Positions 16,193 to 31,721 of a DNA stretch of 64,000 bases are shown here, one piece after another. Every line of letters starts with the position of its first letter. Positions within the stretch are counted from its first letter, which is position 1. This DNA is from Pseudomonas grandcourensis. Its GTDB lineage: Bacteria > Pseudomonadota > Gammaproteobacteria > Pseudomonadales > Pseudomonadaceae. The stretch spans positions 2,456,501 to 2,520,500 of the forward strand of contig NZ_CP150919.1 in NCBI RefSeq assembly GCF_039909015.1, given 5' to 3'. The notes below the pieces were generated by a model. It had not been told where the DNA came from, searched no databases, and was given only the letters and a program-made list of their open reading frames with translations. Made by a program: the position numbers and the translations under genes.

Positions 16193-16339
16193 TCATCCGG
16201 TGGCAACCTTCGAGTCAACGTCCATCAAGGTCCTGGGCAATAACCGCTACACCATCACCGGCAAAAACGTTCCCTGTGCGGGCTCACTCGGGAAGTGAGT
16301 ATGCCGGTGCTGCTTAAGTGGGAAAGCGTCATCGGCATT
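16193..16339 (+). pseudogene. Broken copy of the YceI-family gene
   Basis: Nucleotides here match the second half of the intact yceI-family gene at 27638-28207 nearly base for base (for example the run coding KxLGNNRYTITGK), but with substitutions, a small indel and an in-frame stop. The N-terminal part is absent. Just after base 16339 the sequence skips about 165 bp relative to the intact copy, then rejoins it at the shared terminator of the multicopper oxidase gene. The fragment is therefore the 3' remnant of a duplicated YceI gene. Confidence 0.85.
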
Positions 16340-16361
16340 CGGCCCCACCGCACGCTGTACA

Positions 16362-16399
16362 AAGAAAAACGCCCGATCCACATTGCATGGACCGGGCGT
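16362..16399 (-). terminator. Terminator of multicopper oxidase copy 1
   Basis: On the minus strand the stem CGCCCGGTCCA / TGGATCGGGCG is followed by TTTTTCTTT. It lies 14 nt past the stop codon, and an identical element follows copy 2. Confidence 0.88.
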
Positions 16400-16412
16400 C
16401 GATCAATCCGCT

Positions 16413-28277: not shown

Positions 28278-28315
28278 AAGAAAAACGCCCGATCCACATT
28301 GCATGGACCGGGCGT
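28278..28315 (-). terminator. Terminator of multicopper oxidase copy 2
   Basis: Same stem-loop and T-run as after copy 1 (CGCCCGGTCCA arm, TTTTTCTTTT tail on the minus strand), 14 nt past the stop. Confidence 0.88.
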
Positions 28316-28328
28316 CGATCAATCCGCT

Positions 28329-31300
28329 CTAGTTCGCCTTTATCGGTACCGTCACGGTTTTGCCGAAGGCGGATTTGATGGTGACCGTCGGGCCAGGCGA
28401 CGGGCCACTGCCGGCGGTCGTCACCGCTATGTTCCAGCGCGCGCCTGTCGCCGTAGGCGTCAGGACGGCGGCGCCAAGGTTCACCGTGCCGGTGGTGGTC
28501 GTGGCAGTCGCCGTGATGGTATTGCCCGTGCCACGGGAGGTGGTACCGGACAGGACCCAATACCAGCGGCTGTTGCTGCGGGCGGTGACGGTAGCGCTGG
28601 TGACGATCAGGCTCTCGTTGATCGCTGCCGAGACCGCTACGGACACCGTCGCCGGTGCCGACTCCGCATCCTTGGCATCACTGGCCTGATAGGTAAAGGT
28701 CGCGGTGAACGGCGCGGGCACCGTGGCCGGTGGTGTGTAGGTCACACGCGTACCATCGGTGCTGACCACGCCCTTGCCGGAGTCCGGTTGTGCCAGGCCC
28801 ACCACTTTAAGTGGCACGTTACCGTCAGGGTCGGTGTCGTTGGCCAGGACGTTGATGATCACCGGTTGGCCGGTGTTGCTGACGGCGCTGTCGGGGTTGG
28901 CGATCGGTTTTTGGTTATCGCCGTCGTTATTGTTACGGGTATCGCCGGTGCGGAAGGTTGGCAGCGCGGCGGAGTTGACGTAGGTGACGCCGTCCCAGCC
29001 GGGCAGGGGGGTTGGCATCAACTGGAACTGGCCAGGGTTCTCGACATCCCAGCGCAGCAGCATGGATGTGTCCTCGTGCTGGGTGTTGTGGCAGTGCTCC
29101 ATGTAGGTCCCGGCAAATTCCCGGAAGCGGATCGCCATTTCCACATCCACTGAGCTGTCGATGCCCGCGCCGATGCGATAGACGTCCTTGCGTGCCCATT
29201 TTTCCCATTCCGGTGGTGCCTTGCCGTCACGGTTGAGGACGATGCCTTCTTCGAAGTGCACGTGCACCGGGTGGTTCCAGCCGTTGCCGCCGTTCTTGAT
29301 TTTCCACACTTCCAGGGTGCCGTCGCCGGAGAACCCGGCAGGGGTCGGGCCATTGGCCAGTTGCGGAGCGGCGCTGATGACTCGAGGGTCCATCTGGAAG
29401 CCTAGACCGCCGTCGGTCTTGATCGTCCAGGGGGCTTCGTCGGTGCCGTCGGAGCGGCCGAAGATGAACTCGCGATGGCGCGCCAGTTTCAGTCTCGCCT
29501 GCACTGTCGGGTCGTCACGGTTGAGGGTCAGCGGAAGCATGGTTTTACCCATCGCCTTGCCCGGTTTGGCGGGTTCGTAGTCGGCGGGGTTCATGCTCAC
29601 GTCCTGGCCGGCATAAGGCTGGACCACCATCTGCATGAACTTGCCCACCACCGGGTCGCCGGCGTCCCATTCCAGTCCTTTGCTGCCCGACTTGAGCACC
29701 GCTTTGTACCTGCCGGACAGGACATCGGCCAGGCTCAGCAGTGTAGCCTCCGGCCCCTTGCCGTCGTGGTGCTCCATCAGGTTGACGAAGTACAGCTTGT
29801 CGCCGGTGCTGATCCCGTTTTTCGCGAAGTTGACGATGATGTCGTAACGCTCGGCGATGCCCATGGTGGGCAGGATGGCGTTGTGGTTCTGCAGGTCGCC
29901 GTCAGCGTCCAGGTCCATGCTGCCGTCGAACGGCACGGCGTGCTCCATGAGGTTGCCGTCGTTGGCTATCAAGTGGAACGGCACGCGGGTATAGGACAGG
30001 CCGGAACCTGCGGGGCCGGGGTATTCGCCACCGGTGCCGGCGACTTCACGCACCAGCGCGATCCTGAAGTAGCGCGATACCGAGCCGTTGAGGATGCGGA
30101 AGCGATAGCTGCGCGCCCGCACGTTCAGGCGCGGCTGGTACTGCCAGTTGACCAGCAGCTGATCGCCGAGAAAGCCATCGGTGTTGAACGGGTTGAACCA
30201 CAGTTGGCCATTGGCGTCCCAGGCCTTGTCGGCCAGCATCAGGTTGACGTCGTAGTCGCGGTTGCCCCAGGGCAATGCCGAACCGCTGGGCAGTCGCAGG
30301 TTGACGCCGTCTTGCAGCGCTTCGTTGCCACGATCCAGGGCGCTGTAGTAGTTCATCATCACCGCGTTGCCCTTGTAGACGTTCTGCGCAGTGAAGTCGA
30401 GCATGTGGTCGTGGAACCAGTGGGTGCTCATGGTTTCGCGCCAGTCGCCGCGAATCTTGATGCTGCCGTTGTTGCAGGTCTTGAGGCCCGGCGTGGCATC
30501 GTTGACGAACAGGGTTTCGCCCGGGGCGCAGGGGAACGCCGCGCGCGGATCCTGAGCGGTGGTGTTGATGGTGTCGTAACCGGCCAACTGGATCGGCCAG
30601 CGATAGTCGTAGTACTGCCCCGGAAAGAAAAACGCATTGGAAAAGCCGTCGCTTTCGGCCGGGGAGTGGCCGTTGTGTTCGTGGGTGCTGAGGGTATGCA
30701 GGCCGAACCCCATGTTGGCCGACGGATCGATCGGCAGGGCGTTGTAGTGCCGCATCAGCACCGGCTGGCCGTAGCGCACCATCAGCAGTTTTGGCGGAAA
30801 GGTGCCGTCGAAAGTCCACAGCGCCTTGTGGTTCTGGATCGGAAAGTTGGGATGGAAGCGGGTGTCGATGCCTTTGGTGGTGCCCGCAATGACCGGGGCG
30901 TCCGAGGTCTGGTTGTAGAGCCCGCCAGGCCCGAACTCACCGACGGCGTAGTTGTGCATTTGCCGGCGGTCGCGCATGCCGCCGTTGAGCTTGGCGCCCG
31001 CTTGAGTGGTCTTGAAGGCGACCTGCGGGTAGAACTCATTCCAGCGCTGGTGCGACCAGCCTTTTCCTGGCGGACGACCTTCGGCCGGTGAGCCGACCGG
31101 ATGGCGGTTGAGGAAGGCTTCGATCTGCGCTTTCCACGGGTTGCGGTCCAGCACGTTGGAATACTGCGACGGAAACGGGTACAGCCCCGGCTGGCGCATG
31201 AAGGCTTCCAGCGCCGCGGCCGAAGGACCGCTGCGGGCGATGTTGTTCGGGTCCTGCGTGGGCGCCGGGCCGACGATCGGAACCGGGAAGGTCAGGGTGG

Positions 31301-31721
31301 GCGGCGGCAGTGTCGGGTCGAGTTTCTCCGTGCCGAATTCTTCAAACAGCAACAGTTGCTGAGTGTACGGCTGGGCCCCGAACAATGGGCTGGGCTTGCC
31401 ATTGGTAGGGATTTTGAAGGATGTCTGCAGGTTTGGCGGCAGCACGTTGTCGGTCGTCGGCGTGGTGCGGGTGCCAAACACGCCATTGGGCAAGGCGATG
31501 GAGCCCTGGTTGGCGGGCGGCATGGCCTTTACGGCATCCAGCGCGGCCTTGAAGTCGGTCGGCGGGTTGGTATACGCCGAAGGATCTGTTGGCGGCGGCG
31601 GGCTGACATCGTCAAGCGGTACTGCATTGACGGTACCGAAGCTGACGTTAATCAGCATCACAGCGGCGATGCCCGGTTTGCTGAAAAAACCGTGCGATTT
31701 GAGGTCTGGCATTTTTTTCAT
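28329..31721 (-). CDS. Large secreted multicopper oxidase with Ig/cadherin-like C-terminus, copy 2
   Basis: 1,130 residues, almost collinear with the product of 16413-19799 from AVPLDD onward; most differences are conservative. Copper motifs HEHNGH, HWFHDH, HPVHVHF and HCHNTQHEDTSM are all kept, so it should also be active. The signal peptide is unrelated to that of copy 1 (KKMPDLKSHGFFSKPGIAAV start), so the homology begins at the mature protein. C-terminal Ig/cadherin-like (VLANDTDPDGN) and Thr-rich terminal modules match. GAGGGG lies before the ATG. The adjacent convergent yceI gene is intact here. The two oxidases may differ in regulation or substrate preference; either could be the ancestral copy. 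Confidence 0.9.
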   Translation of the reverse strand: MKKMPDLKSHGFFSKPGIAAVMLINVSFGTVNAVPLDDVSPPPPTDPSAYTNPPTDFKAALDAVKAMPPANQGSIALPNGVFGTRTTPTTDNVLPPNLQTSFKIPTNGKPSPLFGAQPYTQQLLLFEEFGTEKLDPTLPPPTLTFPVPIVGPAPTQDPNNIARSGPSAAALEAFMRQPGLYPFPSQYSNVLDRNPWKAQIEAFLNRHPVGSPAEGRPPGKGWSHQRWNEFYPQVAFKTTQAGAKLNGGMRDRRQMHNYAVGEFGPGGLYNQTSDAPVIAGTTKGIDTRFHPNFPIQNHKALWTFDGTFPPKLLMVRYGQPVLMRHYNALPIDPSANMGFGLHTLSTHEHNGHSPAESDGFSNAFFFPGQYYDYRWPIQLAGYDTINTTAQDPRAAFPCAPGETLFVNDATPGLKTCNNGSIKIRGDWRETMSTHWFHDHMLDFTAQNVYKGNAVMMNYYSALDRGNEALQDGVNLRLPSGSALPWGNRDYDVNLMLADKAWDANGQLWFNPFNTDGFLGDQLLVNWQYQPRLNVRARSYRFRILNGSVSRYFRIALVREVAGTGGEYPGPAGSGLSYTRVPFHLIANDGNLMEHAVPFDGSMDLDADGDLQNHNAILPTMGIAERYDIIVNFAKNGISTGDKLYFVNLMEHHDGKGPEATLLSLADVLSGRYKAVLKSGSKGLEWDAGDPVVGKFMQMVVQPYAGQDVSMNPADYEPAKPGKAMGKTMLPLTLNRDDPTVQARLKLARHREFIFGRSDGTDEAPWTIKTDGGLGFQMDPRVISAAPQLANGPTPAGFSGDGTLEVWKIKNGGNGWNHPVHVHFEEGIVLNRDGKAPPEWEKWARKDVYRIGAGIDSSVDVEMAIRFREFAGTYMEHCHNTQHEDTSMLLRWDVENPGQFQLMPTPLPGWDGVTYVNSAALPTFRTGDTRNNNDGDNQKPIANPDSAVSNTGQPVIINVLANDTDPDGNVPLKVVGLAQPDSGKGVVSTDGTRVTYTPPATVPAPFTATFTYQASDAKDAESAPATVSVAVSAAINESLIVTSATVTARSNSRWYWVLSGTTSRGTGNTITATATTTTGTVNLGAAVLTPTATGARWNIAVTTAGSGPSPGPTVTIKSAFGKTVTVPIKAN

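Follow-up and report, generated by a model that had tools for sequence, protein, structure and literature searches.

The question raised by this locus is why Pseudomonas grandcourensis should keep, 8.5 kb apart, two long and near-identical genes for apparently secreted multicopper oxidases (MCOs), designated here MCO_A and MCO_B, or simply A and B. Both lie on the minus strand of the window, i.e. the whole 64,000-nucleotide stretch that was analysed, which corresponds to bases 2456501–2520500 of the single-contig 6.76-Mb genome of this strain (labelled G000 among the genomes compared); coordinates are those of the window unless a contig or locus is named. Our preferred answer, to which we give a probability of about 0.6, is that A and B would be secreted Mn(II) oxidases of the McoA family, controlled by MnxR at sites away from the regulator genes, and that they represent an older pair of genes that has gone on recombining. 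The features concerned are as follows.

About 16193..24676, no strand: 8.5-kb block (yceI fragment, MCO_A, msrA, GGDEF/EAL gene), missing at the same site in three relatives
About 16193..16338, plus: internal fragment of a yceI gene, with a frame shift and without either gene end, at the left edge of the A block
16370..16398, minus: terminator-like stem after MCO_A, read by eye from the sequence; within the stretch shared by A and B
16413..19799, minus: MCO_A, 1128 aa, the second oxidase of the long McoA type, with B-like body and 3′ flank and A-type 5′ end
19634..20063, minus: A-type 5′ region with promoter, leader and signal peptide; relatives have it away from the B locus
19890..19905, minus: predicted sigma-54-like site of A, TGGCTCATTAGTTGCA, 10/11 consensus positions, at −106
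20216..20722, minus: msrA, a linkage to A that recurs in Pseudomonas sp. GM74 and in G321, a genome of the same species
21271..23892, plus: PAS-GGDEF-EAL gene in the A block; about 20820–24140 is missing in GM74 and G321
27638..28207, plus: intact yceI-family gene (PF04264), convergent with MCO_B
28286..28314, minus: terminator-like stem after MCO_B, read by eye from the sequence; within the stretch shared by A and B
28329..31721, minus: MCO_B, 1130 aa, a multicopper oxidase of the long McoA type, at a conserved GNAT-MCO-yceI-PRT-MATE locus (PRT, phosphoribosyltransferase)
31773..31788, minus: predicted sigma-54-like site of B, TGGCGCACCTCTTGCA, 10/11 consensus positions, at −67

Membership of A and B in the McoA family

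By blastn, A and B are homologous over 16339–19715 and 28254–31634 respectively, with 93.0% identity across 3384 columns, and the encoded proteins are 90–91% identical; chance is excluded because of the length and the identity of this match. A first-pass annotation of this DNA had described two ~3.4-kb near-identical minus-strand genes, each followed by the same terminator and by a convergent yceI gene that is intact only beside B, and the genes, the stems and the intact yceI are all borne out. The copper motifs HEH, HDH, HVH and HCH are present in both proteins and invariant across 22 aligned sequences (in B they are HEH347, HDH437, HVH820 and HCH876, plus the Met of HCHxxxHxxxxM), and both proteins carry a C-terminal Big_9 domain. 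Comparison of A with B over residues 60–1020, the range used for all dN/dS comparisons, gave dN 0.041 and dS 0.171 (dN/dS 0.24), and their divergence is therefore not recent. Judged by the four copper motifs and this dN/dS, both genes look functional, in agreement with the earlier impression of two active-looking oxidases. The closest named matches of B are Pseudomonas jessenii DSM 17150 (94%) and Pseudomonas sp. GM74 (93%).

A and B are, by homology, members of the McoA family of Mn(II) oxidases of P. putida GB-1, an assignment made because of gene context and published primers; no NCBIfam model scored above its cut-off for A or B. Both primers given across the GB-1 mcoA deletion (PMC5906577, in its Table 3) match with 0 mismatches on either side of a long MCO in another genome (L217 in G333); this protein and B share 76% identity over residues 17–1128, so that homology along the full length is established through this relative, and A and B show 73–76% identity to P. 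putida-type McoA. Neither the nature of A and B as McoA enzymes nor the disappearance of mcoA from the mnx cluster, described below, is visible from the window, which was all that the first-pass annotation had before it.

According to the part of PMC11409713 used here, the GB-1 mcoA operon comprises mcoA, SCO1, a diguanylate cyclase/phosphodiesterase (GGDEF/EAL), a phosphonate-binding protein and a phage integrase, and all five members were recovered by Pfam in P. putida KH-21-134 (L078). GB-1 McoA (PputGB1_2665, a Mn(II)/Mn(III) oxidase) resembles A and B in its long form with Big_9 and the C-terminal part, in its copper motifs and in its sigma-54-like promoter, but its gene heads an operon with SCO1 and GGDEF/EAL, whereas A and B are two separate copies without a SCO1 neighbour. 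Many other Pseudomonas have a short McoA, lacking the C-terminal part, encoded between mnxS1 and SCO1, which fits the values given for MS-1 and DSV-1 McoA (80% coverage, 74% identity) in the same part of PMC11409713. It is 71–75% identical to the long form over about residues 20–930, but has neither the C-terminal Big_9 nor the last part, and its gene lies within the regulator cluster, from which it is gone in G000. MnxG of P. putida (NF041487), per the parts of the papers used here, is likewise a multicopper Mn(II) oxidase under the same regulators, but has 1943 aa and no match in G000. Among long McoA frames, two are extended, to 2801 aa (L068 from 10001) and 2845 aa (G248:C60:12499-15819).

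Promoter-like sites and the distant mnx cluster

The predicted site of A is identical in GM74_A (L035) and at two further loci (L050 and L099); that of B is identical at four loci (L046, L047, L049 and L083) and one base off in L034/L045 and L044. Sites were scored at 11 consensus positions in 87 upstream regions of McoA-family genes (removal of 16 repeats from 108 extracted sequences and addition of the two window copies gave 94, from which 7 with <300 bp were dropped), and 885 other open reading frames (ORFs) of the same loci served as a control. Sites with at least 9/11 positions were found in 81/87 McoA-family regions compared with 44/885 other ORFs, and sites with at least 10/11 in 47/87 compared with 4/885. 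Sigma-54/IHF sites are predicted for GB-1 mcoA and mnxG in the part of PMC11930936 used here, which also reports differences in timing or conditions between mnxG and mcoA. By analogy, the two promoters of the window could separate A and B in timing or conditions, and the suggestion in the first-pass annotation that their regulation may differ is in keeping with the different sites.

Outside the window, ~59–77 kb from B and A, the G000 genome has a cluster with mnxS1, SCO1, mnxS2 and a full-length mnxR, the product of which is complete with its sigma-54 activation domain. The order expected from elsewhere is mnxS1-mcoA-SCO1-mnxS2-mnxR, but in G000 only 185 bp separate mnxS1 from SCO1 and mcoA is missing; this gap retains TGGCGAGGTCCTTGCA, the site that precedes the short mcoA of G005. 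Near mnxS1, a 762-aa protein with two Big_9 domains is encoded (G000:C1:2543669-2545957; L037:7670-9958), whose C-terminal part is ~50% identical to residues 936–1130 of long McoA, a domain not present in short McoA.

We surveyed 398 genomes of the genus, scoring at most two McoA candidates in each, so that copy numbers are lower bounds; 26 selected genomes were re-searched for all candidates. Among 122 SCO1 rows, 77 at ≥71% identity were counted as mnx-type loci (in 76 genomes) and 45 at ≤68%, mainly P. putida-type operons not inspected singly, were set aside; MnxS neighbours were verified for the extracted loci. The operon mcoA is kept at 66 of the 77 loci (59 by coordinates, five by locus and two by the re-search of selected genomes) and lost at 11 (ten by locus and G252 by a separate check). 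No remnant beyond the promoter was found in G000, G321 or GM74; little beyond the 5′ end remains in G287, G416 and G132, and in G175, G276, G290 and G070 the remnant consists of two to four separate, scattered pieces. Both cores of the promoter-like site, GG and TGC/GC, were readable in 10/10 gaps inspected. A long McoA is found elsewhere in 10/11 genomes that have lost the operon gene (those of G070 and G175 stop near residue 1030), and a long McoA without SCO1 in at least 15/65 genomes that keep it, counting a partial one in G285 and leaving aside G015, where operon mcoA is kept and the long McoA is accompanied by a SCO1 of its own. MnxG, searched with a query confirmed by NF041487, was present in 20/26 selected genomes; there was no match in G000, G321, GM74, G276, G290 or G431, all of which except G000 are drafts. 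MnxG was accordingly discarded as a co-enzyme in G000. Two MopA-like giant frames of 3611 and 3576 aa (G000:C1:1704463-1711032 and 2272078-2279097) each contain two animal haem peroxidase stretches.

We propose that A and B would each be transcribed from their own sigma-54 promoter, with the MnxS1/MnxS2/MnxR system, now without its own linked mcoA, as the likely activator, and that the SCO1 copper chaperone left in the mnx cluster probably serves both enzymes in trans by loading copper. A wider proposal, which we hold tentatively and at slightly less than even odds, is that the Mn-oxidation regulon of the P. jessenii group became uncoupled from its original enzyme: the cluster mcoA would have been lost by repeated erosion that spared promoter and chaperone, through a takeover by recombining long McoA paralogues with sigma-54 promoters of their own. 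Why bacteria oxidize manganese, and why many of them keep several Mn oxidases, is given as an open question in the parts of PMC11930936 and PMC11409713 used here. A genome such as G000, where MnxG was not found, operon mcoA is gone, the regulators are kept and two McoA-type genes have different promoters, makes promoter and enzyme divergence separable, and the 11/77 loci with mcoA loss are natural replicates. No description of this arrangement was found in the portions of the literature searched, which did not include the original mcoA papers of Geszvain and colleagues.

Origin of the A block and probable exchange between the copies

The block that contains A is absent in GV085 (L047), Root71 (L098) and P. 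izuensis (L058), which have ~35, ~50 and ~40 bp respectively in its place (in P. izuensis, from 16018 on). Base-by-base alignment of the two segments, as the first-pass annotation had advised, showed that the left end of the unit shared by A and B coincides with the left end of this block, and in the comparison with GV085 the common sequence stops at that edge, at the start of the yceI fragment. At the right, the homology ends within the signal peptide (19715/31634), and the promoters, leaders and signal peptides differ. The ~165-bp gap reported beside the yceI remnant is real, since 167 bp of the B side (28087–28253), comprising the end of yceI and a spacer, is missing at A; the remnant itself is not a 3′ end but an internal fragment, which matches the middle of yceI (about 27943–28086) in two frames and lacks the 5′ part and the final 121 bp of the gene. 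We also considered yceI as a tight functional partner of the oxidase and rejected it, and we do not call the pair a module because yceI lies 2.5–8 kb from the MCO in five loci (L055, L057, L062, L063 and L097).

The block edges show no repeat above chance (the longest match between the two 200-bp edges was 8 bp, the same as in shuffles), and neither a transposase nor an integrase domain was found among the scanned block proteins. The earlier view that no mobile element is visible at the ends is upheld, and a duplication borne by such an element was dismissed.

The neighbours of B (a GNAT gene, yceI, the phosphoribosyltransferase gene and MATE) recur around an MCO in many relatives. When the locus was compared across relatives, another course advised by the first-pass annotation, A and msrA were found at the same place in GM74, without about 20820–24135 and its GGDEF/EAL gene, and in G321 contig L259 reads B end, yceI, PRT, MATE, msrA, A, again without that segment; A, msrA and B were already linked in both and have the same order in all three genomes. 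The A-type 5′ region with its gene, 87–88% identical, occurs elsewhere in R37 (L050), AP3_16 (L099) and G319, and in the last of these, on one contig, it lies 1.06 Mb from the B locus. In each of these, homology to A extends no further than the stop codon, with neither the terminator nor the yceI piece shared, and A therefore has the look of a composite, with an A-type front and a B-type body and tail. The locality of the copy, as first claimed, is not supported by this result, which comes close to the old, unlinked genes that the annotation had itself named as evidence against its reading. Other McoA-type genes were seen near the site of the A block in AP3_16 (L048:17254-19974) and AP3_22 (L046:22771-23375, truncated where the locus ends), and this place may be a hot spot. 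Of two contigs of P. jessenii DSM 17150, one (L044:13388-17734) has GNAT and an MCO with no yceI after it, and the other (L107:1-2312) opens inside an MCO and continues into yceI, a pattern that may represent a rearrangement or a second local copy.

Paralogues that undergo concerted evolution by gene conversion have similar coding parts and distinct flanks with a boundary between them. We compared site patterns in an alignment of A and B from G000 and GM74 (GM74_A being cut off by the contig end). Over 20030–19634, comprising the upstream region and signal peptide, 119 sites group the sequences by position, one within strain and none crossed, and the homologous part alone (19715–19634) gave 11:1:0. 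Below 19634, in the mature coding body, the corresponding numbers are 26, 30 and 19, as gene conversion or recombination would give. Body dS between A and B within G000 is 0.171, compared with 0.214 (A–A) and 0.267 (B–B) between G000 and GM74. In a whole-gene tree of 24 DNA sequences, A and B as one clade were rejected (p-AU 0.006), although recombination can disturb this approximately unbiased (AU) test and a mosaic gene is poorly described by any one tree; A with its GM74 positional orthologue (p-AU 0.021) and the six A-type genes as one clade (p-AU 0.009) were also rejected. Over 19560–18961, A is as near or nearer to B of the window (96–98%) than to any other compared sequence. On these patterns, flank orthology with a mixed body, A and B fit a gene-converting pair of paralogues. 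They share similar bodies, distinct flanks and a boundary with other linked paralogues of this kind, but differ in that their exchange seems to include other strains and that the copies are closest to each other in only G000 of three genomes.

We suggest that the older of the two sites in the group is the B locus, and that A was built beside it before the split between this species and GM74, from an A-type promoter and signal peptide and a B-like body, terminator and yceI piece. Later recombination, by gene conversion and exchange between strains, would then have kept the mature enzymes alike and the promoters distinct.

Several observations weigh against this interpretation. Six of the 87 upstream regions fall below 9/11 positions (L015, L036, which is a third, short copy in G000, L040, L061, L090 and L100), and the 87 regions are mutually related. 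Upstream of ~19715, A and B are unalignable by blastn, so that the majority of the 119 sites record the difference between two distinct sequences and not base substitutions, and body dS between A and B is 0.287 in GM74 and 0.245 in AP3_16, which leaves the within-genome likeness to G000. The Fisher p of 3e-5 for the association of mcoA loss with a long McoA elsewhere overstates independence, as the genomes are related, and G252 has lost operon mcoA with no McoA match at 1e-100 and with MnxG present. A and B are not the sole candidate Mn oxidases of G000, which also has the short McoA relative (at 3236470) and the two MopA-like haem peroxidase ORFs. No SCO1/SenC gene was found beside A or B by locus annotation and tblastn, unlike P. 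putida mcoA, a difference that is a matter of context and not of the protein. The AlphaFold model of B (22 sequences) had a mean pLDDT of 42, too poor for a check of the copper sites, and was unused.

Four other explanations have to be set against our own. The long McoA enzymes might act mainly on another substrate, such as Cu(I), Fe(II) or phenolics, with Mn(II) oxidation minor or absent: the distant PDB sequence matches are led by bilirubin oxidase (E 1.9e-26) followed by SufI-, CotA- and CueO-type enzymes, and both the missing SCO1 neighbours and the failure to find MnxG in G000 would fit. The identity to P. putida-type McoA, the sigma-54-like sites and the retention of the Mnx regulators argue the other way, and we regard this reading as unlikely. 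A might, alternatively, have been gained as a block from another strain of the P. jessenii group, its B-like body coming from the donor and not from conversion at home, as the absence of the block in three relatives and the additional McoA-type genes in that neighbourhood in AP3_16 and AP3_22 would allow; with the order A, msrA, B conserved in three genomes and neither an integrase nor edge repeats found, we consider this a doubtful alternative.

In a further reading, in part the one that the first-pass annotation proposed, the B unit (MCO and yceI together) would have been duplicated locally, within 12 kb, to give A, after which yceI decayed and the promoter was replaced. A common ancestry of the A body, terminator and yceI piece with a B-type MCO-yceI unit does stand, as does the closeness of A to B over 19560–18961. 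A simple 12-kb copy is nevertheless opposed by the rejection of A and B as sisters, by the presence of A with msrA in GM74 and G321, by the A-type 5′ regions at other loci and by the dS of 0.171, which together make such a duplication quite improbable. A recent tandem copy was ruled out by the tree, in which the copies are not nearest relatives, by the relatives and by the 5′ region; a recent local duplication is thus disfavoured, and an old one, before the GM74 split and followed by conversion, is possible. The idea that purifying selection alone has kept A and B similar, as dosage copies with no mutual recombination, can draw on the purifying selection seen on both (dN/dS 0.16–0.24 in the compared pairs), but it sits badly with the low synonymous divergence within G000, the shift in site pattern near 19634 and whole-gene trees that separate positional orthologues (p-AU 0.02), and appears very improbable.

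Other features of the window

No tRNAs or Rfam families were detected in the 64-kb window. Dispersed palindromic repeats of ~95 bp are present at 26652–26733, 34106–34212, 37234–37333, 39190–39283, 42561–42655, 44072–44180, 52065–52161 and 53213–53320; some contain TGTGGGAGCGGGCTTGCCCGC, and we take these to be Pseudomonas REP-like elements. A MXKDX pentapeptide-repeat protein (TIGR02953) is encoded at 38847–39170, with DNA repeats at 38996–39146, and 39-bp tandem repeats, in ~6.6 copies, occupy 9003–9259.

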